Part shown: positions 1 through 22,100 of the stretch, piece after piece
Layout: each line of letters opens with the position of its first letter
Position numbering within the stretch: position 1 is the first letter of the stretch
From: a virus
Direction: 5' to 3' (one strand)
DNA: 25,075 nucleotides
IMG/VR virus record: IMGVR_UViG_3300025120_000501
Span: 1-25,075 of that record
Translations under genes and position numbers: made by a program
The notes under the pieces: generated by a model
Told to the model about the DNA's origin: nothing
What the model saw: only the letters and a program-made list of their open reading frames with translations
Database searches by the model: none

Positions 1-868
1 CGGGGTTGGCTTGCCACAAAGCCTTGGCCTCATCCCCTATCTTGCCGTTATACGGGCACGGAGTACCTGCATACATCATGCTTGACCAGACGCGGTAGTC
101 TTGACACATCAAAGATACTGCCGCTACACGCATACCCATATCGTACATTGTCTTTGACAGCTTAATTCTCTCACAGTTAGTGTCACGAACAGACTTTCCC
201 GCAGAGAAGCCCAGAATCTGTGTCTGTACTGCGCCTGAAATGCCTGTAGTGCATAGGTCTTGTGAATAAGAAGCCCCAATAGATGGAGCGATAGCACTAG
301 GTGGTGGTGACTCAATCTTCTGGGTTACTCGTTGGCTAGAGTCGCTAGTGCTACTGTTGGTATTGGTGTTGACGTTGTTGTTCTGATTCATAGCCGTTAT
401 ATCAGACACAGAGTTTGTTGTTTGATAGCTAGTGCTTTCAGAGGTTGAGGTGTTAACGCTTCTGCTGTTATTGGTGTTTTGGTTAACGCTAGTAGAGTCG
501 CTAGTGCTACTGTTGGTATTGGTGTTGACGTTTGTATTGGTGTTGACGTTTGTATTGGTGTTGTCAATTGTTCCAGTATAATTAGTTGTGTTTACGTTGT
601 TGTTGGTATTGGTGTTGTTTGAAACCGAACTTGAAGAAGAATTAACCGTACTCGTATTGGTGTTTACGTTGGTATTGTTGTTGGTGTTAGTGTTTGTAGA
701 CGTTCCAGTGTAAGTAGTCGCGTTTACATTAGTGTTATTGTTGGTATTTGTAGACGTAGAAGTGGACGCTGCGTTGCTAGTCGCAGTTGTGTTTATATTA
801 GTAGTGGTGTCCTGCCCAAAGACAGGAAAAGCCATGAGAAACATGGCGGTGCATATACAGCGTTTCAT
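1..868 (-). CDS. Secreted Asn/Thr/Ser-rich protein with Cys-containing C-terminal domain (partial, 3' end outside window)
   Basis: My own translation of the minus strand from the ATG at 868 stays open for 289 codons to the window edge, so the C-terminus is missing. Residues 1-18 look like a Sec signal peptide: MKRC, then a hydrophobic run ending in PVFG before Q19. Residues ~20-165 are low complexity, built from N-T-N-N-N-V-N-T units with Ser stretches, and include an exact 40 bp DNA repeat. The following ~105 residues form a denser domain with Cys (LCTTG, TNCERI, LMCQDYRVW, GTPCPYNGKIG), which suggests disulphides and an extracytoplasmic location. A GGAAGGAC site lies just upstream, 25 bp after the preceding oxygenase stop. 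The function is unknown. A secreted or envelope role, such as surface modification or a lysis accessory, fits the signal peptide but is inference. The apparent ORF on the opposite strand here is a shadow of the repeats. Confidence 0.8.
   Translation of the reverse strand, partial: MKRCICTAMFLMAFPVFGQDTTTNINTTATSNAASTSTSTNTNNNTNVNATTYTGTSTNTNTNNNTNVNTNTSTVNSSSSSVSNNTNTNNNVNTTNYTGTIDNTNTNVNTNTNVNTNTNSSTSDSTSVNQNTNNSRSVNTSTSESTSYQTTNSVSDITAMNQNNNVNTNTNSSTSDSSQRVTQKIESPPPSAIAPSIGASYSQDLCTTGISGAVQTQILGFSAGKSVRDTNCERIKLSKTMYDMGMRVAAVSLMCQDYRVWSSMMYAGTPCPYNGKIGDEAKALWQANP
337..552. repeat. Coding repeats in the Asn/Thr-rich segment: a 40 bp direct repeat and 18 bp tandem units
   Basis: The 40 bp at 337-376 recurs exactly at 493-532 and encodes the same N-V-N-T-N-T-N-S-S-T-S-D-S segment in frame. 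Two perfect 18 bp units follow at 517-534 and 535-552, with a partial third copy after them. All are multiples of three in spacing or in frame, so they are protein-coding repeats, probably prone to slippage or recombination. Confidence 0.85.
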
Positions 869-893: not shown

Positions 894-1499
894 TTACTCG
901 CAGTATGCTTTACCTTGATTCCAAATAAAATGCGCTATTGACACCCTACATGAATCTTCTGTTCCACCTATGCTTTCACTTGAATGTTCAGCACAAGACG
1001 GAAACACTATTGTACGCCCCTGCTTAAATTCTACCTTTACATCTTGCTCAGGAAAACAAAGTCCTCCCCCAGTAAATTCGCCCCACCCAAGCAAAGTTAT
1101 AGCTGTAATATTACAAGTATCTTTATGCGCTTTATAAACTTGTCCCGGCGTATAATAGTTTATTAGCATAGTGTCTATATTGGACTGACAGATAAAAGAA
1201 AACACTACATCAAACTTTTCTAGCGCAAGGCATAATTCATTGTTAAATATTTTTTGTCCCGCACAAAGTGTGGGAGAAGCGTTTCTATTGTTTGTGTATA
1301 GGTTGTCTAAAAAAACTCCAGTTCCCGTTTTTTTATATTCTCCGTTTTCGTATTTTGCCGAATCCGTTATCTCTGAATTTGCCGAAAGTCTTTTTAAGTC
1401 TTTACTTTCCGATAAAACCGCTTCATATTCTTGGCCCGTTATATAATCGTCTATTACTACGTAGCTTAAATTTTTTTCTCTATAGCAAGTTACTTGCAT
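894..1499 (-). CDS. 2OG-Fe(II) oxygenase-like protein (complete HxD...H...R)
   Basis: 201 residues, a typical size for a single double-stranded beta-helix dioxygenase. The metal and cosubstrate residues are recognisable: H125-K-D127, then a GGGLCFPE strand at 145-152, H172, and R185 in CRVSIAHF. Family knowledge says such enzymes use Fe(II), O2 and 2-oxoglutarate to hydroxylate a protein, nucleic acid or small molecule. The substrate cannot be read from the sequence. The ATG at 1499 overlaps the stop of the preceding gene (stop at 1490), indicating translational coupling. It is the last of six oxygenase-like genes in this block and lies just before the secreted Asn/Thr-rich gene. It has more Cys than its neighbours. 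The fold call is firm; the biological role is open. Confidence 0.85.
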   Translation of the reverse strand: MQVTCYREKNLSYVVIDDYITGQEYEAVLSESKDLKRLSANSEITDSAKYENGEYKKTGTGVFLDNLYTNNRNASPTLCAGQKIFNNELCLALEKFDVVFSFICQSNIDTMLINYYTPGQVYKAHKDTCNITAITLLGWGEFTGGGLCFPEQDVKVEFKQGRTIVFPSCAEHSSESIGGTEDSCRVSIAHFIWNQGKAYCE

Positions 1500-1711
1500 A
1501 TAACTGCCGTGTCCGTGTCTGTAAAAAACATTAAATTTCCTTCACAAACTATATTCCAATCAAGCCCTTCTTGCTCGCTATAAGAAGGGACCTCAAGTAT
1601 TACATGCCTTGCCAACCACTCTGTTTCATTATGCAGGACTCGCCACACATGTTCGGAAGTACCTCTACCCTCTTGCCCTTTTGATTTATTAAACCGTATT
1701 CGGTATTTCAC
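1490..1711 (-). CDS. Conserved small phage protein of unknown function
   Basis: 73 residues, starting with GTG at 1711 that overlaps the TGA of the upstream oxygenase (GTGA). It begins MKYRIRFNKSKGQEGRG, followed by SEHVWRVL and an EVPSYSEQEGLDWNIVCEG segment. I recognise this pattern from short hypothetical proteins in cyanophages and other marine phages, where it has no assigned function. No membrane segment, signal peptide or metal motif is visible. The basic N-terminus and alternating hydrophobic residues suggest a small beta-rich domain. It lies between two oxygenase-like genes and overlaps both, so it is probably co-translated with them; it could be a partner or substrate, which is inference. 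Confidence 0.75.
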   Translation of the reverse strand: MKYRIRFNKSKGQEGRGTSEHVWRVLHNETEWLARHVILEVPSYSEQEGLDWNIVCEGNLMFFTDTDTAVICK

Positions 1712-2241
1712 TCATAGCTGCCCACGTTAAAATTTACGTTAAAAGACAAGATCAACTTGCTGTCTTGCGTTTTATTTATTGGCGCTTTATGGTGCAAAAA
1801 AGAAGGGAACGTAATTATGTCTCCTTCTTCAACAGGGACCGCATACTCTTTCCCGTTCCACTTAAACAAAATTTTAGGGTGATCGCCGTTTAGCTTAACG
1901 TAATACACTCCGACAAACATGCAGTTACCGTGAACATGCCAGTCGTGGAAGTCTCCTTCCTTATAATATTGATACCAATTATCCCCTATACTCCATTCCG
2001 CAAAGTTTAAATCAACTGCCACTTGACTAACGTGATCATATATATCGCTTTGACTGTATTTCCAATATTCTTTTTTTGCGTCAATTACATGCCAGTCGCA
2101 GCTAGTTAAATTTATTCCTTTAGAGCGGATACCATACATAGCCCCTTTTTCCACGCAGTCGATTATCTTTAGCTTAGACTCCGCGTGATCAGGGGCTTTT
2201 GTTTTAAATAACGGAAGACCAAAATCTAAAGTTTTGTCCAT
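1708..2241 (-). CDS. 2OG-Fe(II) oxygenase-like protein of the HxH type (PF13759/TIGR02466-like)
   Basis: 177 residues. The core runs from about residue 98 to 170: WHVHGNCMFVGVYYVK supplies H102 and H104, FPSFLHHKAP supplies H150/H151, and SKLILSFNVNF puts Lys162 where most relatives have the 2-oxoglutarate-anchoring Arg. The HxHxN...SGVYY-type signature is typical of the TIGR02466 group of putative 2OG-Fe(II) oxygenases, common in marine phages. Substrate unknown. The ATG at 2241 follows the tail assembly chaperone stop (2245) by three bases, and the end overlaps the next gene by 4 bp. It resembles the 6415-5840 protein more than the other oxygenases in the block, both sharing the HxHxN motif. 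Active-site divergence leaves open whether it is catalytic. Confidence 0.82.
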   Translation of the reverse strand: MDKTLDFGLPLFKTKAPDHAESKLKIIDCVEKGAMYGIRSKGINLTSCDWHVIDAKKEYWKYSQSDIYDHVSQVAVDLNFAEWSIGDNWYQYYKEGDFHDWHVHGNCMFVGVYYVKLNGDHPKILFKWNGKEYAVPVEEGDIITFPSFLHHKAPINKTQDSKLILSFNVNFNVGSYE

Positions 2242-2244
2242 AAC

Positions 2245-2619
2245 CTATTCTGGCTTTACAGGCCAAGTAACTTCTGGAAAGCCTGCCTGTTGCCTAATGT
2301 TACGCAACTCTGCACGATATGTTATCCAAGCTTGTTTTTCTCCAACCGTCATTGGAACATCAGATAACATTGTCCAATCAGTTTGACGCAGCAAGTCTTT
2401 AGCTTTGGCCCAAACTAATTCAGAAGGAGTAGCTGTAGCAGGTGACTCCCCCTCTACCTGTACCCAACCTTGATCAGCGTATGCCTCACCCAACCAAGAC
2501 AGATCCCCAAGCTTTTCTTCGATTCCAGACATACCAAAAATCGGCCCCCAGTTCTCAGGAAGATTTCCGGCTTCGTTTAGTGCTTCGTTTGTTGACAGTT
2601 TTTTTAATTGCCACAGCAT
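2245..2619 (-). CDS. Phage tail assembly chaperone-like protein (Phage_tail_APC type)
   Basis: 124 residues from the ATG at 2619, chosen because an AAGGAG site lies 7 bases upstream (2627-2632); the longer reading from 2655 has no such support. The C-terminal ~45 residues carry the hallmark of this family: DWTMLSDVPMTVGEKQAW, then YRAELRNIR and GFPEVTWPVKP. Family members are small helper proteins encoded beside tail fibre or tail tip genes and assist fibre assembly. The N-terminal half (LWQLKKLSTNEALNEAG) is variable, as expected. The first 65 bp overlap the end of the upstream gene in another frame, so the two are probably translationally linked. The likely client is the Gly-rich adhesin two genes upstream, by position only. 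Confidence 0.8.
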   Translation of the reverse strand: MLWQLKKLSTNEALNEAGNLPENWGPIFGMSGIEEKLGDLSWLGEAYADQGWVQVEGESPATATPSELVWAKAKDLLRQTDWTMLSDVPMTVGEKQAWITYRAELRNIRQQAGFPEVTWPVKPE

Positions 2620-3094
2620 TTTCTTTCTCCTTCTCTTTAATTTGTAAAGGCACACCTGCTTGTACTTCAGTTGCCGGAAGCACTCCTCCGCCTACATCGT
2701 GATGCACCGCCATATCATTAGAATGAGGTGGATGCCCGACACCCGGAAGCGCTTGATTGCCACGATAATGCGCTAACTCTTCTTCTGTAAGCTGCCAATC
2801 TCTCCAACTAGAAAAATCTTTTCTAGGTAGTAGTTTCAGGTGGCAACCTACGTTTGCAGAAAGCTGATGTATAAGCTCTATGACTTCTACCGGCTGTAGT
2901 AAACAGAATAAATTTTGTCCTGCATTACCTCGCATAGATATCTCAGTAGTCCCTCCAAATGCAGTGCCTATTGTAAAACCTCTAGCCCTATTCGCTTGGT
3001 CAGCCTTCATGTTAGCTAAATGAAGTTCTTCTCTAGCCTTTATCTCAGAGATTTCCGCTTCTTCTTTTACTTTCTGTAATTTACTTTTTGCCAT
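2555..3094 (-). CDS. Conserved phage protein with N-terminal coiled coil, unknown function
   Basis: 179 residues from the ATG at 3094, which shares its A with the TAA of the Gly-rich gene (TAATG); a reading from 3109 would start inside that gene. Residues 2-40 are strongly charged and helical (KLQKVKEEAEISEIKAREEL), a likely coiled coil. The middle is a conserved-looking core: FTIGTAFGGTTEISMRGN, then LLQPVEVIELIHQLSANVGC and SSWRDWQLTEEELAHYRG. The tail is Lys/Arg-rich and its last 65 bp overlap the tail assembly chaperone gene. I recall similar cores in marine phage hypothetical proteins beside tail genes. No catalytic motif is visible. A structural or assembly role is inferred from position only. 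Confidence 0.75.
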   Translation of the reverse strand: MAKSKLQKVKEEAEISEIKAREELHLANMKADQANRARGFTIGTAFGGTTEISMRGNAGQNLFCLLQPVEVIELIHQLSANVGCHLKLLPRKDFSSWRDWQLTEEELAHYRGNQALPGVGHPPHSNDMAVHHDVGGGVLPATEVQAGVPLQIKEKEKENAVAIKKTVNKRSTKRSRKSS

Positions 3095-4086
3095 TATTGA
3101 GGGTTCCAACTAACAACAATTTGACCGCCCGTTGCTACTGTTACTGGATACGCACTACCACTACATACTGTAACGCCATTGGACGTAGAAGGGGTTGCCG
3201 AACCTCCGGGATTTCCGGCTTGGCCACTACCGCCAGTGTTTCCACGACCACCTCCGCCGCCTCCAGAAGAGAAAAATCCTACTGCATTCTGTGCTTGGTA
3301 ACGACCGACACCACCACCGCCACCGCCACCGCCTGCTCTTGAAACACTACCTGCTGTACCGGACTGGGCGTTAGCCGGGCCAGAAGGAAGGTTAGAAGCA
3401 CCATTACCACTTGCCCCGCCTCCGCAAGTGCCTCCACTACGAGCGCCACGGTCAGTTGCGTCTTGTCCCGAATTGACTGTACCTGCTCCACCGCCGCCAC
3501 CGCCACCAACCCCGTAACCATCTGGCGTAGCAGGGAAGCCTGTGCCTCCACGACCACCACCTTGGTTAGTAAACCCTCCCGTGTTTCCTTGGCCTGATGG
3601 AGCGGAGTTTGTATTACCGGGAGAACCGATATTTGCAGAGCAGCTAAAAGCACTCGTCCCTGTATTCCCTTCATTACCCGCAGCGCCGCCATTGCCTGCA
3701 TTTCCACCTGCAAAGTTTATAGAGAAAACAGAAGACGCTGCACCAGAATTTCCTGCGTTACCTGCGTTACCTGCGCTTCCACCCGGCCCACCGGGCGCTC
3801 CACCTCCGGGGTTTCTTTGGTTCGGCCCAATCCAAAAACTGGGGTTTACTACCACAGGAGAGCTGCTTTGATTCTGTACGTTTTTGCCGCTACCGCCGCC
3901 ACCACCACCCCCATCGGCCCCGGGATTTCCGGCGTTGCCTGCGTTACCCGCACCCCCAACTCCTGTAACGCTGACACAAGTAACCCCGACAGGGACGTTG
4001 AAAGTTCCAGATGCGTTAAAAGTTTCACTACCACCGGGGACTACTCCGGCCCCTAAAACCCCTGATTTAGATGATCCTATGGGCAT
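3094..4086 (-). CDS. Glycine-rich tail-tip adhesin-like protein
   Basis: 330 residues, of which a very large share is glycine. Residues 18-43 (SETFNASGTFNVPVGV...VSVTGVGGAG) match the opening beta strand seen in phage Gly-rich tail proteins. Long G runs alternate with G-N-A triplets (46-58, 106-116, 127-142), and the end TVCSGSAYPVTVATGG...VVSWNPQ is the closing strand of the same class. These proteins resemble polyglycine-sandwich adhesins such as gp38 of T4-like phages, which bind host receptors at the fibre tip. GAGG sits 5 bases before the ATG, directly after an oxygenase stop at 4089. The collagen-like G-x-x stretches flanked by hydroxylase-type genes make it a candidate modification substrate (inference). 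Four Cys are present. Confidence 0.82.
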   Translation of the reverse strand: MPIGSSKSGVLGAGVVPGGSETFNASGTFNVPVGVTCVSVTGVGGAGNAGNAGNPGADGGGGGGGSGKNVQNQSSSPVVVNPSFWIGPNQRNPGGGAPGGPGGSAGNAGNAGNSGAASSVFSINFAGGNAGNGGAAGNEGNTGTSAFSCSANIGSPGNTNSAPSGQGNTGGFTNQGGGRGGTGFPATPDGYGVGGGGGGGAGTVNSGQDATDRGARSGGTCGGGASGNGASNLPSGPANAQSGTAGSVSRAGGGGGGGGVGRYQAQNAVGFFSSGGGGGGRGNTGGSGQAGNPGGSATPSTSNGVTVCSGSAYPVTVATGGQIVVSWNPQ

Positions 4087-4088
4087 AA

Positions 4089-4676
4089 TTACCTCACTTT
4101 AGCTGTGCTGCTTAATCCTAATTTTGGCCTACCGTCCCATTTACAAATACTGTAAGGGCCTGTTTTATCTACATAATGAAGCATAAATTGAGCGTTTAGT
4201 TTAGTTTTTGTTTCATTCATTGGTTTTCGCCAATGTAAGAGATCGCATCCTCTATATACTAACGCATCGCCTGCATTCAAAACAATTGCATTGTCGTTTC
4301 CGTCTATGTCTTTTATTCCTATAGGCCAATCTTCACCTACCTTAGCCACATGTACTGTAACCGAGTATTCACACTCTGGACGGTCTGTATGCGCCTTTAA
4401 TTCATCCTTATCCATATAAACTCTCATATAAGAATAAGTAGGATATAAAGACCTCCCTACTGTTTTTCCAATAGAGTCAGCCTTATCTTCTAAAAAAAGC
4501 TCTATTAATGGGTCGGCGTAACAAAAAAAGGTACTGGTTAAATCTTGATTAAATCCTTTTTCATCACAAAAACGCCTGTTTATTGCGTTTTCAAAATACC
4601 TTGATACTCGACTTACTTCAGTTGGAAGTAAAAATTCTTTAATAACATGGTAGCCTTTTTCTTCAAAGCTACTCAT
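4089..4676 (-). CDS. 2OG-Fe(II) oxygenase-like protein with HxD and Lys in place of Arg
   Basis: 195 residues from the ATG at 4676, which overlaps the upstream stop as ATGAGTAG; the longer reading from 4697 uses TTG and lacks support. The core shows H96-T-D98 in LKAHTDRPECEY, a GDALVYRGCDLLHW segment with H148, and Lys157/Lys159 in ETKTKLNAQFMLHYVD where an Arg usually binds 2-oxoglutarate. The N-terminus (FEEKGYHVIKEFLLPTEV) resembles the 'nonheme oxygenase' start of phytanoyl-CoA hydroxylase-like and prolyl-hydroxylase-like proteins. The stop is 2 bases before the Gly-rich adhesin ATG, the tightest link between an oxygenase and a plausible substrate in the window. Substrate not determinable. 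Confidence 0.82.
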   Translation of the reverse strand: MSSFEEKGYHVIKEFLLPTEVSRVSRYFENAINRRFCDEKGFNQDLTSTFFCYADPLIELFLEDKADSIGKTVGRSLYPTYSYMRVYMDKDELKAHTDRPECEYSVTVHVAKVGEDWPIGIKDIDGNDNAIVLNAGDALVYRGCDLLHWRKPMNETKTKLNAQFMLHYVDKTGPYSICKWDGRPKLGLSSTAKVR

Positions 4677-5259
4677 AGTAAAACCAACCCGTTGCAATAT
4701 ATTTATCTGTATTGCCTAACGGAGGGTTACCTCTATGTACATGAGTATAGTCAGCAGGCCAAATAATCACGGTGTTTTTCTTAGGCTTAACGCGAAGTTT
4801 TTGGTATAAGAATTCTGTTTCCCCACCATCTTGCTCAGGCAAATCGTTTAAGTACAAAGAATATACAATAACTCGGTCTCGGTCTCTGCCGTGAGCGCGT
4901 TCAGAATGCCAAACGTGATACCCTTCTGCCGGAGAAGTTTTTTGCACTTTCATATAAGTTGCATTTACTTTTACATTTTTTAATTGAGCAAAAGTTTCTG
5001 CATAAGATTCAAAACATTTTTGCAAACCAGAGAAAAAAACGCTCTCCATAGTCGTATCATTAAACATTGTAGTAGCGTGGTTTAATATGTTTAAAGCTTT
5101 GTCTGCTTTTTCTAATCGAGTTGATGGCTCTGATTCTTGTCTAGTCCAACCCGCACCAGTGACTTTAATTCTTTCAAACTCTGCAATTACATACTCACAA
5201 AACCCTTCTGGGTAAACATCTTCGTATGTGGCTATAAAATCATTGTATGTGTTTTTCAT
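4669..5259 (-). CDS. 2OG-Fe(II) oxygenase-like protein (HxE variant, PF13640-like)
   Basis: 196 residues. The core is clear: WHSE at 117-120 gives H118 and E120, an acidic variant of HxD, DGGETEF at 144-150, then IIWPADYTHVHRGNPP with H173/H175 and DKYIATGWF with Lys186 in the usual Arg position. The GGETEF...THVHRGNPP pattern is shared by phage-encoded prolyl 4-hydroxylase-like oxygenases. The N-terminal ~110 residues would form the supporting helices and first strands. ATG at 5259 overlaps the previous gene's TGA as ATGA, and the end overlaps the next oxygenase start by 8 bp, so three oxygenases in a row appear translationally coupled. Activity with HxE is possible but should not be assumed. 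Confidence 0.83.
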   Translation of the reverse strand: MKNTYNDFIATYEDVYPEGFCEYVIAEFERIKVTGAGWTRQESEPSTRLEKADKALNILNHATTMFNDTTMESVFFSGLQKCFESYAETFAQLKNVKVNATYMKVQKTSPAEGYHVWHSERAHGRDRDRVIVYSLYLNDLPEQDGGETEFLYQKLRVKPKKNTVIIWPADYTHVHRGNPPLGNTDKYIATGWFYYE

Positions 5260-5840
5260 CTAAATAAAGGCCCTGAGACCCAAGTAACCAAAGAAGCCCT
5301 TTCCCCTTGCACTACAGGAGTAACTTGGTGAAGAGTGTAAGAAGGAAAAACTGCTATTAATCCTTTTTCTCTAGGAATAGTTTTCGGCTCTTGAGAAGTT
5401 TTTATTTCTAAATTACCACCTTCATATTCTAAGGGGTCACTAAGCTGAACGGATAAAGAAAGTTTTCGGTTAGGCGCTCCCCCTTTGCCACTATCTTGAT
5501 GCCACCCGTACATTCCTTGCTCAGACATTTGATATCTAGTTAGCTGCAAAGGTTCCGCAAAACCCGTTAAGTCAAATCCATAATATTGAGCATTAAGAGA
5601 AGATACAACATGACCAAGTTTGTTATAAATCCACTCTGTTTCAGCATTACATTCAAGCCAAGATATTTTTGACCTTCTTACTTTTAGAACACTTTCACTA
5701 TCGTGGTTCCCTGCTGATGCCCTGTCTTCTGCCGCAGATGCTATTTTATTTAAATATTTTAGCTCGTCATCAGTAAAAGCACCTCTCCACCAAGCATAGG
5801 GTTCTATACTTTGAGAGTAAGGAGTTACAAGAAACTGCAC
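5256..5840 (-). CDS. PKHD-type 2OG-Fe(II) hydroxylase
   Basis: 194 residues with the most canonical active site of the cluster: YGWHQDSG (H114, D116), RKLSLSVQLSD, YEGGNLEI, then FPSYTLHQVTPV (H171) and GERASLVTWVSGP (R181). This order matches the PKHD hydroxylase family (YbiX/PiuC-like, prolyl-4-hydroxylase superfamily). It probably hydroxylates a protein side chain, but the substrate is unknown. The start is GTG at 5840, sharing one base with the preceding TAG (TAGTG), and the stop overlaps the next gene as ATGA. With complete HxD/H/R residues it is the best candidate for an active enzyme, together with the 1499-894 protein. Confidence 0.9.
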   Translation of the reverse strand: MQFLVTPYSQSIEPYAWWRGAFTDDELKYLNKIASAAEDRASAGNHDSESVLKVRRSKISWLECNAETEWIYNKLGHVVSSLNAQYYGFDLTGFAEPLQLTRYQMSEQGMYGWHQDSGKGGAPNRKLSLSVQLSDPLEYEGGNLEIKTSQEPKTIPREKGLIAVFPSYTLHQVTPVVQGERASLVTWVSGPLFR

Positions 5841-6415
5841 TATTTAGCCTCGCTTGAAATAATAAAATGTAGGCATGTAGTGGGAAGTTCGTTTCTATTC
5901 TCTGTTAGTTCGTGTTCAAGCCAAGAGCTGCTAATTAAAACAGTGCCGGGGCATATCCCGCTAAAATGTATCGAGCCAGTAGATTCTGTGACGTCGCTAC
6001 TATGAGCCGATTCTAGTTCTACCATGCTTTTTCTAACTCTAGGGTCATGGTAAACCGGATACGAGCTATTAGTAGGAGGTGTATCCAGAAACATCCACCC
6101 ACAAAGTTGGCTATTTTTATGGGTATGCACGTTTGTTTTATCCCCCTTATAAACATCTTGCGCCCACACGCTAACTTTTAAGGTATACTTTTCTACTGCA
6201 TACCCTTGCTCGCTAAGTATTTTTGCGGACTGCTCTAAGAGATATTTTTTAAAAGTGCTTAACTCAGGTGCGCCTGAAATATCCGCCGTTTGAATGAACG
6301 AACCTTGCTCCAGAACTTCCCCGGAGTATTCGCTCACATACTTTTTTAGCGCGTACAACCACTCTGGTTTTTCATCTCTGTAAACCAAAGTGGGAAAATA
6401 CGAAAACGTATTCAC
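5840..6415 (-). CDS. Divergent 2OG-Fe(II) oxygenase-like protein (HxHxN, no clear Arg)
   Basis: 191 residues, starting at GTG 6415 that shares a base with the upstream TAG. The opening MNTFSYFPTLVYRDE is typical of the TIGR02466/PF13759 group. Residues 95-106 (NVHTHKNSQLCG) give H97/H99/N101, and SSWLEHEL gives H168. The C-terminal strand is NELPTTCLHFIISSE, where relatives have an Arg, so the 2-oxoglutarate anchor seems lost or shifted. It may be catalytically altered or inactive. It is the first of the six oxygenase-like genes in transcription order and directly follows a short fibre-associated protein. The fold assignment rests on the N-terminal motif and HxH region and is less certain than for its neighbours. 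Confidence 0.72.
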   Translation of the reverse strand: MNTFSYFPTLVYRDEKPEWLYALKKYVSEYSGEVLEQGSFIQTADISGAPELSTFKKYLLEQSAKILSEQGYAVEKYTLKVSVWAQDVYKGDKTNVHTHKNSQLCGWMFLDTPPTNSSYPVYHDPRVRKSMVELESAHSSDVTESTGSIHFSGICPGTVLISSSWLEHELTENRNELPTTCLHFIISSEAK

Positions 6416-6648
6416 TAACTTTCAATATATGTAACTAAAGTATCCGCAAAAGCCGTAACTTCTGAAGCAGTTATTTCTCTGCTTCCCGCCGCTTGATCCA
6501 AACGATTGTGAACAAGCATATTAGTCGCTATTTGAACTGCGCTTAGTTTGCCCCTTCTGGATTCCAAACGAAGTTGTTCATCTGTGCGAGAATTTTCCAT
6601 TGCCGCTTGTAGTTCAAGTTCTGCTTGCTGTTCTGCTGTTAATGCCAT
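6415..6648 (-). CDS. Small helical fibre-associated protein, unknown function
   Basis: 77 residues, with ATG at 6648 and a strong AGGAGG at 6657-6662. It starts MALTAEQQAELELQAAMENS and ends EITASEVTAFADTLVTYIES; nearly all of it looks alpha-helical and amphipathic. I recall short proteins with this N-terminus and an EITAxxxxxFADxLVxY ending next to tail fibre genes in marine phages. No function is established. Position between the fibre gene and the oxygenase block suggests a fibre chaperone or minor tail component (inference). Confidence 0.75.
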   Translation of the reverse strand: MALTAEQQAELELQAAMENSRTDEQLRLESRRGKLSAVQIATNMLVHNRLDQAAGSREITASEVTAFADTLVTYIES

Positions 6649-6675: not shown

Positions 6676-7749
6676 TTAAGTGGTTAGATTTTTCATAGGT
6701 AATGTTACATACCAAGTTGTTCCACCATCGGGCGAAAAGAAAAACCATATATCGACTGCATTTGCCGTGGTTGTCCTAGAAATAGACCCACCCGGATATT
6801 TGAACGTACCGCCCGCTAAAGCTACAGTCCTAGACGGCGTACCGTCATTAGTGAGCACCAAAGTAAACGAGGTTGCTCGGTTAGCCGTGCTGTTAGGTGT
6901 AGCCAAAGTAATAGTGGCATTACCGTTCAAGGTCGCAGTAAATACGTTACCGTCGTCACAGTCAATAGTTACGGCTGTTCCAGTATTACCTAGGGCGGTC
7001 ACTCCGTCAGAGAACACACCCGAGAAAAACACACTGGAGTCCATCGAAAGCACAGTATTTGCACTAGCGTTTTGAATTCCTGTAGTAATCTTAGGAGTAG
7101 TAAGCGCGGGGCTTACGTTAAGAACTGTAGCGCCTGTACCCGTAGAAGTTGTAACTCCTGTACCGCCGTTAGCAACTGGGAGGGTTCCTGTAATTTGCGA
7201 AGTAAGGTCAACACTGCCAAGAGTGCCGCCAAGTGTAAGGTTGCCCGAGCTAGTGACTGTACCCGTCAGAGTAATTCCATTAACTGTGCCTGTGCCGCCT
7301 ACACTTGTTACCGTACCACCAGTTTCAGTGGGGTTAGCGTTAAGTACCGCAGCGCCTGCGCCTGCACCGTCTGTGACGACCATGACTTTAGAGCCGTTGG
7401 CGACGTTAACCGTAGCGCCTGAACCCTGCTTGATCGTGATGATCTGGCTGCCAGTAGTCGCGTTCTCGATTAGCCACACTTTAGATACTGTATTCGGACC
7501 GAGTGTTACTTCGCGTGTAGCTGTTAGCGACGCCGCAGAGGTGATCTTTAAGTAAAACCCACGAGTCGCATCTGTCGTAGCGTCCGGCATGGTGAAGGTT
7601 TCGTTGGCGTCAGCCGCCATTTGCTTCGTGCCGTAGCTAAAACCGTCAGTAATCAACTCAAGGTTAGTATTGGTGCTAGTCCCCCAAGTGCCACTTTCAT
7701 CGCCTGTGGCGATTTCTTTAAGCCGTAAATTGTTTACATAAGTAGCCAT
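6676..7749 (-). CDS. Tail fibre-like protein with NGGTG motif
   Basis: 357 residues rich in Thr, Ser, Gly, Asn and Val, typical of beta-structured trimeric fibres. The N-terminus YVNNLRLKEIATGDESGTWG is a recurrent start of fibre proteins in marine phages and may dock to the virion. A second segment, GTLPVANGGTGVTT (188-201), is a classic repeat motif of phage tail fibres. The end, WFFFSPDGGTTWYVTLP, would be a receptor-facing or trimer-closing domain. GGAG lies about 8 bases before ATG 7749. It is followed by a small helical protein and then the oxygenases. Exact virion position is unknown. Confidence 0.82.
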   Translation of the reverse strand: MATYVNNLRLKEIATGDESGTWGTSTNTNLELITDGFSYGTKQMAADANETFTMPDATTDATRGFYLKITSAASLTATREVTLGPNTVSKVWLIENATTGSQIITIKQGSGATVNVANGSKVMVVTDGAGAGAAVLNANPTETGGTVTSVGGTGTVNGITLTGTVTSSGNLTLGGTLGSVDLTSQITGTLPVANGGTGVTTSTGTGATVLNVSPALTTPKITTGIQNASANTVLSMDSSVFFSGVFSDGVTALGNTGTAVTIDCDDGNVFTATLNGNATITLATPNSTANRATSFTLVLTNDGTPSRTVALAGGTFKYPGGSISRTTTANAVDIWFFFSPDGGTTWYVTLPMKNLTT

Positions 7750-7766
7750 TTAATTATCTCCAGTCC

Positions 7767-7979
7767 TTAACTTAAGGTGCTGCCACCGGCAGCAGGGACG
7801 CTTGTCGCGTAAATCGTTGTATTCTGACGCAAGTTTAGTGCTTCGCCGCAATCCGAGCAAGTATCGGCGGTTAATTCAGCCTCGTTCACATCATACCCGC
7901 AGTTGCCACATAACACTTCAATTTCATGCTTCGGGTCTATTGCGCTCCCCAAGTTTTTGGCTTCGTTTACTGTTTTCAT
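7767..7979 (-). CDS. Small zinc-ribbon protein
   Basis: 70 residues from ATG 7979, chosen for the TAGGAA site just upstream; the alternative at 8009 uses TTG and overlaps the upstream gene by 22 bp. Two CxxC pairs, C24-G-N-C27 and C41-S-D-C44, form a textbook zinc ribbon (CGNCGYD...CSDCGEAL). The C-terminal ~20 residues (NTTIYATSVPAAGGSTLS) look flexible. The role is unknown. Small zinc-ribbon proteins near phage tail genes may be minor structural or assembly factors. Confidence 0.75.
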   Translation of the reverse strand: MKTVNEAKNLGSAIDPKHEIEVLCGNCGYDVNEAELTADTCSDCGEALNLRQNTTIYATSVPAAGGSTLS

Positions 7980-7987
7980 GTGTTTTC

Positions 7988-8860
7988 CTACGCTGCAATT
8001 TTTTTCCAAGTAGTCCCCGGATCGGGAACTATTCTACTCCAAACCAGTACATTCCCGACTTCACCCGTGGCCTGTACACCAATGGGATTAACTACGGCAG
8101 CGGCTGTCTCGGTTGTCTCGCCTAGAGCTGTAGTACCCTGAACTCCCGTAACAGGGACATCAAGAACTAGCTCTACTGTTACGCTACCTAGTGCAGACGT
8201 TGCTTGCAGTCCGGTTTCCGTGACTATTGCGTCTGCTGTGACGCTTACCGTGCCTAGAGCGGTAGTGCCTACAACGCCCGTAGCATTAACAATTGCGTCA
8301 CTTTGCACCCCGGCAGTGCCTAGAGCGGTAGTGCCTACAACGCCCGTTACAGCTACTATAGCGGCGGCTTCTATCTCTACCGTCCCAATTTCTCCGGTAG
8401 CGGCATTACCAAGAGCGCTTATCGCTCCATCGCCGTTAACTGCAATATTGCCAAGAGCTGTTGTGCCCACGACCCCAGTTACGGTGGCCGAAGTACCTTC
8501 TTGGACTGTAACCGAGCCTACTTCACCTGTGGCCTGCAAGCCTAAGGACTGACCCCAAGAACCTTGCCCCCAAGAACCGCGACCCCAACCACCCAACAGA
8601 ACTTCCACATCGAACCTAAGCGTACCTAGTTCACCTGTGGCGCTAAGCCCTGTAACCGAAACGCTTTGGTTAATCGTAACGGAAGTAGAGCCTAGTCCCG
8701 CAGTGCCTGATACACCACTAACACTTACAACTGCACTTGCAGCCACCGTTACCGAACCTACTGCTCCCGTAGCAGACGGAACGACAGGACTTTCATCCCA
8801 CCCATCTGTTCCCCAAGTGCTGTAGCCCCATCCGGTGATGGGGACGATAACATCAGCCAT
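7988..8860 (-). CDS. WG-motif and 22-residue-repeat tail/structural protein
   Basis: 290 residues. Residues 10-25 (GWGYSTWGTDGWDE) and a central GGWGRGSWGQGSWGQ are tryptophan-glycine motifs common in marine phage structural proteins. The rest is a series of about ten degenerate 22-residue repeats of the form TGVVGTTALGTVSVTADAIV, predicted to be beta strands. Two DNA units share an exact 31 bp match (8251-8281 and 8317-8347, offset 66 bp). AAGG precedes ATG 8860. Likely a fibre or decoration protein that varies by repeat number, inferred from composition and position between a minor structural protein and the fibre gene. Confidence 0.75.
   Translation of the reverse strand: MADVIVPITGWGYSTWGTDGWDESPVVPSATGAVGSVTVAASAVVSVSGVSGTAGLGSTSVTINQSVSVTGLSATGELGTLRFDVEVLLGGWGRGSWGQGSWGQSLGLQATGEVGSVTVQEGTSATVTGVVGTTALGNIAVNGDGAISALGNAATGEIGTVEIEAAAIVAVTGVVGTTALGTAGVQSDAIVNATGVVGTTALGTVSVTADAIVTETGLQATSALGSVTVELVLDVPVTGVQGTTALGETTETAAAVVNPIGVQATGEVGNVLVWSRIVPDPGTTWKKIAA
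8060..8810. repeat. 66 bp coding repeat array
   Basis: Degenerate repeat units of about 66 bp (22 codons) fill the WG-repeat gene, interrupted by the WG segment near 8530-8610. The best-conserved pair is an exact 31-mer at 8251-8281 and 8317-8347. Related copies are seen near 8119-8150 and 8450-8482. The reading frame is kept throughout. Confidence 0.75.
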
Positions 8861-8869
8861 CTAAGTACC

Positions 8870-9304
8870 TTAAGCGATACGTATGATCGCGTTGCTCGCA
8901 TCAGCAGCAGGGAAGACAATAGTAAAGTCGCCCGCAGTAGAGGTCTTATCCGAACCGAAATCCAGAACTGCGACAGCAGGGTTAGTGCCGCCGTTCGCTA
9001 AGTAGATCAAAGCGCCACGAGCAGTAATAGTTGCCGTAGAAAACGTCAAGTCAGCAAAGTCCAAGAACGCTGTAGTGCCAGTTGAAGCAGGGTTTGCTGA
9101 GATAGTCAGCGTGCCGCCGCCCGCACTGTAGCCTGTGCCTGAAACTTCGTTAGTTGCGCTGTATGCAGTAGTGGTTGCACCTAGCGTAGCTGAAGACGTA
9201 TACAGCGCCAGTTTAAAGACCTGTGATGTGCCTGAAGCAAAGTCAAAGTCTCCACCAAGGATTTGAACTTTAAACGATGTAGCCATAGCTTGTGAAATAG
9301 CCAT
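8870..9304 (-). CDS. Conserved phage structural protein (beta-rich)
   Basis: 144 residues. It carries the series FKLALYTSSATLGATTTAYS, NEVSGTGYSAGGGTL, FLDFADLTFSTATITARGAL and VAVLDFGSDKTSTAGDFT, a pattern I recognise from a very widespread phage structural protein found beside tail genes. It is beta-rich with no charged helices. GAGG lies about 8 bases before ATG 9304. No precise function is assigned; a virion component near the tail tip or fibre base is likely. Confidence 0.82.
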   Translation of the reverse strand: MAISQAMATSFKVQILGGDFDFASGTSQVFKLALYTSSATLGATTTAYSATNEVSGTGYSAGGGTLTISANPASTGTTAFLDFADLTFSTATITARGALIYLANGGTNPAVAVLDFGSDKTSTAGDFTIVFPAADASNAIIRIA

Positions 9305-9324
9305 TTGTGTTTCCTCTTAGAATA

Positions 9325-9981
9325 TTATGGGCCGGGTGATTCCGATTTAATTGGCAATCTAATCATGCCATCTCTAAATTCATCACGACGACGGCGACCC
9401 TGCTGCTCGATGCCGAGACCTTGTATTGCCTGCTTATAGCTGTCTTCAAAATATTTCAGCATTTCGAGCGGACCTTTGGTGTAACTGTATGCCTGAATAA
9501 GGCACGCATATAAAAGCGCTTCGGGGGCGTCAGTGCTTACCCACGTTGTCGTATTTGTAGATGACAACTGTTGCGGCTTATATATGTATCCTAACTGAAC
9601 TTCGTAGTTAGCGTCTGGTGTAGGCGCTATATAAAACGTGTTTTGGTCCCATACTGAATAATATTTTGGGGTCCCAGTTTGGGAGTAATTAGGCCAATAC
9701 TCTTTCATAAAAGAGGTGTCCCTAAACTCCAGAAAAGTTTGATTTCCACTTAACGTCGCCATAATGTAGCGGTGAGTAAGTATATCGCTTGGTGCAACTA
9801 CAAAACGATTACCTTGAGTCATATTTGCAGTGGCTTCAATTTTAAAAACATCAAGATCAATGTCCCTAAGAATTCTGTTCTCAGCCATTGTTATGAAGGT
9901 ATCTATAACCGAATTGGGGAACACATTAGCGTCCACCTCGGTGTAATTACGAATGTTTGTTACTAACTCATCATAGGTCAT
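9325..9981 (-). CDS. SU10-type adaptor (head-tail connector) protein
   Basis: 218 residues beginning MTYDELVTNIRNYTEV, followed by FITMAENRILRDIDLDVFK and a DILTHRYIMATLSGN region, then YYSVWDQNTFYIAPTPDANY and YKPQQLSSTNTTTW. This matches the adaptor family named from phage SU10, functionally like T7 gp11 or the P22 gp4 ring, which joins the portal to the tail nozzle. The end is Arg-rich (QQGRRRRDEFRDG), perhaps for DNA or portal contacts. ATG 9981 overlaps the upstream TGA (ATGA). Together with the other adaptor at 10984-10319 it suggests a short-tailed virion. Confidence 0.82.
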   Translation of the reverse strand: MTYDELVTNIRNYTEVDANVFPNSVIDTFITMAENRILRDIDLDVFKIEATANMTQGNRFVVAPSDILTHRYIMATLSGNQTFLEFRDTSFMKEYWPNYSQTGTPKYYSVWDQNTFYIAPTPDANYEVQLGYIYKPQQLSSTNTTTWVSTDAPEALLYACLIQAYSYTKGPLEMLKYFEDSYKQAIQGLGIEQQGRRRRDEFRDGMIRLPIKSESPGP

Positions 9982-10316
9982 GTAATTACCACCGTGACTG
10001 CTCCAAGTGTACCTACGCCTTCAACTGCAATCGCAGCGGGGGCAGGTTGCATAGAACTCGGCACTGTCTCAAAAGGCGTATCGCCACCCGCGTTATTTAC
10101 AAAAACGCTCAACGGCTCTGTTCTATCTGGGCGAGGATTCTCAAGTGCAATCGCATCGCCCCTGTACTTTAACGGGTCTAACTGCGGCTCTTTCGGCTCG
10201 TAATCCTCAGGGCACACCATAAAGCCCTTCCAATTTTTTTTCAGGGTCTGATAAGGATATCGCTGCCCGCAATAATCACAAAGGCCATAAGAATATTTAC
10301 CCGTTGCCTGACTCAT
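9978..10316 (-). CDS. Small phage protein with partial zinc-finger motif
   Basis: 112 residues. The start has C13-D-Y-C16 and a third Cys at 35 in FMVCPEDYEPKEP; a fourth Cys is absent, so the zinc site is incomplete or uses another ligand. The next segment, LDPLKYRGDAIALENPRPDR, is familiar from short proteins located between adaptor genes of marine phages. The C-terminal ~30 residues (AIAVEGVGTLGAVTVVIT) look beta-like. The gene is 2 bp from the upstream stop and overlaps the downstream adaptor by 4 bp, so a connector or tail assembly role is plausible but not proven. Confidence 0.75.
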   Translation of the reverse strand: MSQATGKYSYGLCDYCGQRYPYQTLKKNWKGFMVCPEDYEPKEPQLDPLKYRGDAIALENPRPDRTEPLSVFVNNAGGDTPFETVPSSMQPAPAAIAVEGVGTLGAVTVVIT

Positions 10317-19108: not shown

Positions 19109-22100
19109 CTATTTGTATGTTCGGTTGTCATTGTACACGCGCTCTACTGATCCGCCACTTTTGAAATAGTCAGGCTCGCCTTTTTTACGCTTTTTAGGGT
19201 CTAGTGCGTGCTCTGGACTTTCTAGTGGCCTAGTCTTAACGTCTTTGGCAAGAACTAGCGGCCCAATCTGGATTACTTCTTTTGCTGAGCCAACGGGTTG
19301 TCCCGTGGCCTTGTCATAAAAGAACGAATGGCGATAGGGGTTCATTCCTACCTGCGTCCAGTTTGGATCGTTAATAAACTTTTCGGCTTGTTCTTTGGCG
19401 ACTTCAGGATCAACATTACGCCACTTGCCGTTCATTCTAGCAAACGAAGCCTTAGGTTTCTTGCCCGTGGCAACCCCAAAGGCCGATTTAGCGTTACTGT
19501 TGAATTGAACGTCATCAAGGACGGCTATTTTGCCATAGCCTAGTGAACTTCCAGAAACGCCTGCGCCTTCATGCACGGATACTACCCACGTGTTGTAGCT
19601 GTTGTAAGCAGGGATGTCTAATCTTGAACCCACCATAGTGCCGTCGGCAATCTTTGTGTCTAAGCCAATAATGCCTTTAGCCACCTTGTTTGCGTCTAGG
19701 GCAGAAGCAATCTCTTCAAACGAAGCTATTCGGGGGACTTCCGTGAGGGAAGTAATAGGGCGAAGGCGGTCTACTTCTTTCGAGTAGTCCGAAATAGATA
19801 TCTCCCCCCTGCCAAGCTTTTCTGCCGCTTGGGAAAGTTCGGGGGTTTGTTCCTGCTTAAAATCGCCTTTATTAGCTTCACGCCAATCTTTGCGCTGCTG
19901 CTCGGTTACTACTTGATTCCCTTGCTCGAGTTTAGGCTCATCGCTTGCATTCCGGGCAGTGTCATCTTTAGGAGCTTGTCTCTGCGTGCTTTCTGGGCGG
20001 GGCTGAGAGTTGCCTTTGGTGGCGAGGTAGATGGATTCGCTGATTTTTCCTTGTTCATATGCGTCCTCTAATGCTTGGGTGATCTTGGGTAAAGACGTAT
20101 TGTAATCCATTTCACTAATTTTATCCACAGTGGTGAGGAACTGTTTTCCTTCCGCGCCGTGGTTGTTGACTATTTGGATGGCTACCCTGTCGTCGTTTTT
20201 GTATTTGTTTTCGATTTTCTTAATGCTTTCGCGGGCGTCTCTGTGTGCGCCCAAGAAGATATCAAGCGGAACTGTTCGTCCTGAGCCTAGCTCATTTTCC
20301 ATTTTGTTTGCTCGGCCTAGCAACAAAGGCAAAGCTTTTTCCGGCGGACGATCTACATAGATAATGGTTACGGCTTTACCTGAATCCAAAGCTTGGTCTA
20401 TCTGGGCTGAAGATTTTTCAAAGTTAGCTAGGGTTCCGTCTACGACTAGGTCGTAGGAATCTATCATGTCGTCAGGCAGCCCTGCGGTCTTACCGGAGGC
20501 CGCTCCACCGCCCGTGAACACCCATTGGCCATCTTGGCCCATAGTGTCACGAAGTGCTCTTTGGTACATAAGTTGATTTAACGCCGTAGAGGTGTCGTGG
20601 ACATTTTGAGAAAGATTCCTATCATTACGGTAGTCCGGGCTTAGCTCCCTAAAGAAGTCCGTGTTAAGGACCTTTCCACCCTTGGAATCAGGGAGTTGTC
20701 GGTATTGGGCTATGGCAGCCTCGGGGTCGGCCCCTACCTGCTCATTAAACCGTTCCGCCACAGGGTCATTAACGACTCGCGGTAGCTTGGCTATCTTTTC
20801 TGCGTCATAGCCAAGAGCTTGGGGCGCGTTTGTAGGTAAAGAGCCTATGCCTTGGGCTTCTTGTACGACCCCGTCAGGTACATCTGTTGAAAGCTTTGTC
20901 CCGACTTCTTCGCCGCTATTTGATTGCGGATCATTTGCGCCACGGGAGAGTTCTCCCCCCGCTCCGCTATTTCCCTTTTTAACTGTTCTGCTAAGTTGCT
21001 CATCGTAGTCATCCCTAAAATAAACTTCAGTATCATAGTAGGTTATTCTTGCATCAGACACATTTCCGTCACCAACTGTATCATTAATTACACTTCGGAA
21101 CAAGTCTTCTGCCTTATTGTAGCTTTCTGTAGCATTTTGCGGGTCAAAAGCGTCGTCAAACTCAGGCACATACTGGAACCTTAGCCCTGTTAGGCCTGCT
21201 GTTTCAGGGTCTCCTGACCTTGTCTGCCTGTTTATGCGGTCGTTGAATCGCATGTCCGTTACATAGGTAAACCCGTCTACACCTTTTTCTCGAAGCCTTT
21301 CCGTAACCTTAGCCATTTGCTCTGGGGTTATGGTCTCTCTAAAGTATATTTCAACGCCGGGCCTTGCATTCGGCGTGCCATCAGGCACCACACGAGACAT
21401 AAATACCGCGTCTTGGTCATAGGCCTTGCCTTGCTCGATCAGTCGAGTTCTCAACGGCTGCATGTCAAAGTTGTCTCTGACAATAAACTCTGCGTTTAAG
21501 GCCCTTTCCGTGTCGCCCATGAAGGAACCGTAAGTATTGGCTAGGTTATAGGTCAATACCGAGGGGTCGTCTCTTACGACATCGTCAAATTCTGCTGCCA
21601 ATTCGGCTTGTGCGTAGCCGCTCATGGGCTGATTAGGCCTTTCGCCCGCTACACCTAACTGAACCCTAGATAAAGGTGCCGCCAATGACGCTAATTCGTC
21701 CTGAGCTGCGCGTCTTGTTCCCTCAAACGCAGTTCTTGCGTCCATTACACGGAGGTCATACGCAGAATCCGTCTCGTTTTTACGCTGCTTGGGCTGCTTA
21801 AAGCCTGCATTAACCTCACGGCGCAATTCAGCTACACGTTCAGGCGACTGAGAACCGGCAAGCGACATCTCATACTCTAGCGAGCCGCCTTCACCGCTCT
21901 TAGTAGTCCACCCGTTCTTGGCCCAACGCTCTTTTTCCATGAACCATGCGATAGCTTGCAGGTCATCTGGACCCAAAGCGCCAAGGTCAGGGTTTACGCG
22001 CTGAACAGAACCGGATTGGTTTACGCGGTTTGCCGCATCACGGAAAACTTCCTGCCCAAATCCAAATTCTCCACCCACTTTAGGCTCGAACAGGGTAGAA

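Follow-up and report, generated by a model that had tools for sequence, protein, structure and literature searches.

The complete IMG/VR virus record IMGVR_UViG_3300025120_000501 (25,075 bases; hereafter the window) carries, on the minus strand of its tail region, a block of six genes resembling 2-oxoglutarate (2OG)/Fe(II)-dependent oxygenases, which we label A to F (Table 1). A first-pass annotation had proposed these genes from the sequence, and all six open reading frames (ORFs) were confirmed, as was their interleaving with a Gly-rich protein, a tail assembly chaperone (PF16778) and two conserved unknowns. Nearly all junctions had been described as overlapping; by coordinates, 8 of the 11 junctions overlap and two more leave gaps of 2–3 nucleotides. 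The genes had also been judged not to be close copies of each other, and indeed A to F are not recent copies, because pairwise identity among the six paralogues is 12–24%.

Table 1. Features of the oxygenase block and its immediate neighbours in the window.
Feature	Coordinates	Strand	Evidence or remark
2OG gene A, 201 aa, optional member	894..1499	-	PF13640 1.7e-6
x73, conserved unknown, 73 aa	1490..1711	-	homologues at equivalent place in many loci
2OG gene B, 177 aa, optional member, HxH motif	1708..2241	-	PF13759 4.7e-10
Tail (fibre) assembly chaperone	2245..2619	-	PF16778 1.7e-16; phrog_4912
x184, conserved unknown adjoining Gly-rich gene	2555..3094	-	unrelated anchor for locus survey
Gly-rich putative tip adhesin, 330 aa, proposed substrate	3094..4086	-	Gly-X-Y triplets, 5 G-X-P-G sites
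GNPG site, Gly-rich protein residues 291-294	3205..3216	-	
GNPG site, Gly-rich protein residues 53-56	3919..3930	-	
2OG gene C, 195 aa, PHROG 2954	4089..4676	-	AlphaFold2 (AF2) model and Foldseek; conserved HxD..H
2OG gene D, 196 aa, P4H-like (prolyl 4-hydroxylase-like), obligatory core	4669..5259	-	PF13640 3.9e-13; PDB P4H matches; 35/35 loci
2OG gene E, 194 aa, PKHD/PiuC-like, obligatory core	5256..5840	-	PF13640 5.7e-15; PDB 3dkq 4.1e-11; 35/35 loci
2OG gene F, 191 aa, HxH motif	5840..6415	-	PF13759 5.4e-10; PDB 3bvc 1.3e-10 (profile)
x77, short conserved protein, flanked by F and the tail fibre	6415..6648	-	relatives
Tail-fibre-like protein opening the block	6676..7749	-	equivalent position in relatives

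Profile searches placed five of the six proteins above the curated Pfam cut-offs, A, D and E in PF13640 and B and F in PF13759. C passed no Pfam model (best, PF13532 at E = 0.2) and matched PHROG 2954 (5e-48) and PHROG 3531. Each gene had been credited with an HxD, HxE or HxH motif plus a distal His, and these metal triads proved invariant or nearly so in relatives: H125xD127..H172 plus R185 in 11/11 for A, H102xH104..H151 in 50/50 for B, H96xD98..H148 in 84–85 of 86 for C, H118xE120..H175 in 120–121 of 121 for D, H114xD116..H171 plus R181 in 108–109 of 109 for E, and H97xH99..H168 in 58/58 for F. Two solved PF13759 proteins, 3bvc (matched by B at 5.9e-7) and 2rg4, show the same HxH..H as B and F where they align with them. 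The best PDB matches of D were P4Hs (5c5t, 3itq and 5hv0; weak, E values of 4e-4 to 3e-3) and those of E were PKHD-type hydroxylases; a PDB search with A gave no match. From these matches, B and F (through 3bvc and 2rg4) and D and E (through the solved hydroxylases) are assigned the double-stranded beta-helix fold, and A is assigned to the 2OG/Fe(II) fold by Pfam alone. At the basic 2OG-binding position past the distal His, A, B, D and E have Arg or Lys, C has Gln163 and F has His183. One degenerate oxygenase copy was seen, a C-type gene in a related locus (L011:14109-14696) that has lost its HxD..H ligands (replaced by NxQ and Cys) and is probably a dead enzyme.

The two PHROG families matched by C are both named ferrochelatase, a label also borne by its homologues S-PM2p237 (L188:5989-6597), S-SM2_036 (L189:7923-8654) and HTVC008M gp068 (L190:9998-10639). 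Structure prediction, which the first-pass annotation had suggested as a check, gave C a double-stranded beta-helix: the AF2 model from a 48-sequence alignment had a mean predicted local distance difference test score (pLDDT) of 94.6, and its best listed Foldseek matches in the PDB were 2OG oxygenases and prolyl hydroxylases (SnoN, SnoK, Pseudomonas putida P4H, EctD and PHD, at 1e-8 to 1e-6). Among viral models, the same search returned 'Ferrochelatase [S-SM1]' together with many phage prolyl-4-hydroxylase entries. The Pfam ferrochelatase model matched neither C nor its S-PM2, S-SM2 and HTVC008M homologues, and the NCBIfam model matched neither C nor the S-PM2 homologue, the two proteins scanned with it. 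Given an oxygenase fold and motifs and no match to a ferrochelatase model, we reject the ferrochelatase identity for C and its relatives; on the fold and family scans we likewise reject AlkB and DNA endonuclease V. On the predicted structure, C is a 2OG/Fe(II) oxygenase-type protein, and the ferrochelatase name of PHROG 2954/3531 is a misannotation. The correction matters independently of the rest of this work, given that publications have treated the family as ferrochelatase (PMC9599517, PMC11561400) and that a 2024 study reports a seasonal signal for PHROG 2954 under that name (PMC11561400). Separately, the phage 'DNA endonuclease V' proteins S-PM2p230 (L188:1795-2304) and Syn1_042 (L191:10226-10741), PHROG 274/2297, scored above the PF13640 cut-off, and by this family match their label is likely a misannotation as well.

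C and its S-PM2 relative score weakly as PF13532/AlkB-like, as might be expected if the genes served nucleic-acid oxidation or repair, or encoded a catalysis-free structural fold, and were simply parked in a hypervariable tail region. We consider this very improbable, as the almost invariant metal ligands argue that the fold is not degenerate and the strict gene order described below is unlike that of a parking lot.

The Gly-rich protein of the window holds a clue to the substrate. Its five G-X-P-G sites comprise two of Gly-Asn-Pro-Gly (GNPG) and one each of GAPG, GGPG and GSPG; X-Pro-Gly is the substrate form of collagen prolyl 4-hydroxylases. We compiled triplet statistics for 93 non-redundant Gly-rich tip proteins linked to D, in which Asn occupied X at a frequency of 0.304 and Pro was found at Y at 0.148 versus 0.016 at X. 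GNPG was observed 383 times against 36 expected after shuffling the non-Gly letters, and 92 of the 93 proteins contained at least one copy. Since X-Pro-Gly sites recur in the tips and D finds its closest solved relatives among P4Hs, we propose that E and D act on tip prolines. In the AF2 model of the Gly-rich protein (pLDDT 81.5) the ends are well predicted and the Gly parts mostly lack regular secondary structure. Foldseek gave this model no significant match (best E 0.3, with the Pam3 fibre second at 0.5), and the profile found only a chance collagen match among PDB sequences (E 0.55).

To survey relatives, we fetched loci through x184, which is conserved and bears no relation to the oxygenases; oxygenases in them were detected with profiles built from this locus set. 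Thirty-five non-redundant loci contained the Gly-rich gene together with 2.6 kb or more of upstream sequence. In all 35, D and E lay upstream of that gene, which was directly preceded by D or by D then C; F was present in 32/35 and C in 27/35. The genes are thus linked to tail genes rather than scattered. With enough downstream sequence to judge, A was found in 3/24 loci and B in 3/24. Four 2OG genes per locus was the commonest number and six were seen in two loci; the full set is known from the window and two other contigs. The first-pass annotation had treated the six genes as a single system, which does not hold, since only E and D are obligatory beside the GNPG tip, with C and F usual and A and B optional; its proposal of a hydroxylation system in the receptor-binding module fares better, and as a proposal it is well supported by linkage. 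The six-gene arrangement itself is not a product of chance, because the entire gene order is kept in other contigs. Other phages show fibre–D–Gly-rich–x184–chaperone–E–C or, in yet others, B–D–E–B–C runs in their tail regions, and the order in the T4-like cyanophage Syn1 is gp12–D–chaperone–E. That E lies upstream in one context and downstream in others favours function over mere co-inheritance. One locus (L036) encodes a second tip-like protein (2188-3123) with 18% Pro and PGNPTP-type repeats, and this has its own E gene 6 bp downstream.

Several further observations were made in these loci. A 2OG domain fused to a tail protein was found in none of those fetched. In L005 the tail fibre directly upstream of D (7632-9986) contains a 47-triplet collagen-like Gly-X-Y run of GIQGTQ repeats. 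In Phage DSL-LC04, the closest relative that has a name, a tail protein (L086:6605-9202) is Gly-rich (33%), contains only a single G-X-P-G and has only a B-type oxygenase adjoining it. Neither x184 nor this chaperone type matched anything among cultured phages, so the searches brought up no isolated phage carrying the whole module; BLAST of the Gly-rich tips against cultured phages was also negative, probably owing to low-complexity masking.

These data bear on the published view that such genes are auxiliary metabolic enzymes (PMC9602691, PMC9599517, PMC11561400), acting on host metabolites, the 2-oxoglutarate or iron balance, or host surface molecules. The structural matches of C do include the small-molecule enzymes EctD and Sno. 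For this block, a metabolic role nevertheless seems quite unlikely: the genes are embedded and overlapping in a tail operon, their order is kept across many contigs, they are tied to one kind of tip, and D and E resemble protein hydroxylases.

We also searched in the opposite direction, scanning viral contigs for a DNA pattern encoding GNPGN[PA]GN, blind to oxygenases. The scan yielded at least 65 in-frame Gly-rich ORFs, of which at least 54 had a 2OG gene somewhere in the sequence fetched. A strict filter required a Gly-rich ORF with two or more GNPG and a flank of 1.5 kb or longer on each side, and counted 2OG genes within 3 kb on the same strand. Among the matches listed, a scope that applies to all counts in this paragraph from here on, 31/34 tips had such a gene beside them, 26 of these within 100 bp, and E was present in 31/31 of the oxygenase-linked sets. 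In the three exceptions, 2OG genes were present with none listed on the same strand (L207), the gene lay 3.5 kb away (L215), or the ORF had a secreted-like start (L249). Poly-Gly ORFs without GNPG had a 2OG gene in only 1/16 cases (Fisher 5e-9 versus 31/34), or 2/28 under a looser filter. Other collagen-like G-X-P viral ORFs had none (0/4 with flanks, 0/9 ignoring flanks), and the count was likewise 0/103 for GNPG repeats from bacterial genomes, most of which are plain linkers. Pro at Y was 0.188 in the pattern-retrieved set versus 0.031 in the poly-Gly controls. The idea that a GNPG string attracts 2OG genes anywhere is rejected by the cellular linkers. Gly-richness or the string singly is therefore not predictive, and it is their combination in a phage tip-like protein that predicts the enzyme.

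This specificity is not predicted if the enzymes modify other virion parts, such as the tail fibre (6676-7749), x184 or the chaperone, and neighbour the tip only through a shared tail location. Such an arrangement would fit Syn1, where D sits between gp12 and the tail chaperone, E follows and no GNPG tip occurs in the stretch read, and it would fit the tail-fibre-like gene that opens the block in relatives; we regard it as unlikely here.

Our preferred explanation, to which we assign a probability of about 0.5, is that the block is a tail-tip maturation or hydroxylation module in which E and D act on tip prolines. Of the three substrates first suggested (virion proteins, host surface molecules and small molecules), the one now best supported is a virion protein, namely the Gly-rich tip. 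Sequence comparison and one predicted structure provide the enzyme families and folds, intact metal sites, strict linkage and site-like triplets, and it is from these that we infer the substrate, the residue, the timing and the effect of the hydroxyls. Several points weigh against the proposal. Tip hydroxylation is argued from sequence and linkage, the surveyed loci share descent so that linkage counts are not independent, and the GNPG string was originally spotted in D-linked tips. Extended-strand packing alone could explain Pro at Y, and the Pro and Asn content of the tips hardly varies with the presence of A, B, C or F. Syn1, S-SM2, HTVC023P and HTVC027P carry relatives of the enzymes and have no GNPG tip in the tail stretches read, so the families must have other targets too. 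Finally, C has Q163 at the usual 2OG-binding Arg/Lys position and B and F carry HxH, which makes the chemistry of C, B and F uncertain.

If the block is a tip-maturation module, the phage would make a Gly-rich receptor-binding tip, which the dedicated PF16778 chaperone would handle and in which the Gly-X-Y stretches probably run as extended strands resembling polyproline II. The 2OG/Fe(II) oxygenases would modify the tip before or during folding, with 2-oxoglutarate, O2 and iron drawn from the host. The PKHD/PiuC-like E and the P4H-like D would most likely hydroxylate X-Pro-Gly prolines, foremost in Gly-Asn-Pro-Gly, and C, F, A and B would probably target other residues of the tip protein or its partners. 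The hydroxyls may stiffen the strands, alter receptor contacts or act as handles. More tentatively, and at somewhat less than even odds, aquatic phages with a GNP-bearing collagen-like adhesin may decorate it with two to six residue-specific hydroxylases of their own, and phage genes listed as '2OG oxygenase + ferrochelatase' may largely be such tail-modifying enzymes.

The window portal is 70% identical to that of Phage DSL-LC04 and 38–47% identical to those of pelagiphages HTVC023P/027P, 023Pt_psg01 and Roseobacter phages CRP-901/902; other genes encode SU10-type adaptors, a capsid protein and GroES. Within and around the block, x73 had no PHROG match and no meaningful Pfam match, and the tail-fibre-like protein had no Pfam match. 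Directly after gene A, an Asn/Thr-rich repeat protein begins (2-868, minus strand), and its N end resembles a signal peptide. Upstream of the tail fibre is a 290-residue tandem-repeat protein of GVVGTTALGTVSV type (7988-8860, minus strand) that is kept in relatives. Towards the C end of a 1,987-residue protein adjoining the portal (19109-25072, minus strand) lies a P-loop-like stretch, GGGAASGKTAG.

Aquatic phages often carry 2OG-Fe(II) oxygenases, which are counted among their 'auxiliary metabolic genes'. Decoration of the adhesin, if true, would change its rigidity or host recognition, making enzymatic hydroxylation a factor in phage host recognition, and many ecological readings in terms of iron, haem and nitrogen metabolism would need revision. 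The claim can be tested by mass spectrometry, as the substrate, residues and enzymes are all named.

The first-pass annotation held that phages commonly carry one or two such enzymes, which is too low: T4-like cyanophages carry 1–5 and S-SCSM1 24 (PMC9602691), and HTVC023P-type pelagiphages have eight non-orthologous kinds (PMC9599517). In the clusters of HTVC023P, HTVC008M, S-SM2 and Syn1, homologous C, D, E, B and F families are adjacent in tail modules; the available parts of the publications treat them as metabolic or of unknown role and draw no link to a GNPG tip. Clusters of 2OG genes in aquatic phages have therefore been described before, and their linkage to a GNPG tip protein is new; in the papers searched we found neither that link, nor the substrate proposal, nor the correction of the ferrochelatase name. 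For the tip itself, the closest parallels are gp38 of Salmonella phage S16 and gp24 of cyanophage Pam3, which have a Gly-rich distal domain of stacked extended motifs, chaperone-assisted in Pam3 (PMC9608196). The model of the window tip is compatible with stacked Gly-rich motifs, although the Foldseek match was insignificant, and the publication on Pam3 gp24 mentions no oxygenase (PMC9608196). Among enzymes, the collagen-type P4Hs (5c5t, and 3itq/5hv0 from Bacillus) share the PF13640 fold with D and are its best solved relatives. D differs from them in having HxE rather than HxD, and its proposed substrate would be Gly-Asn-Pro triplets in a phage tail protein.

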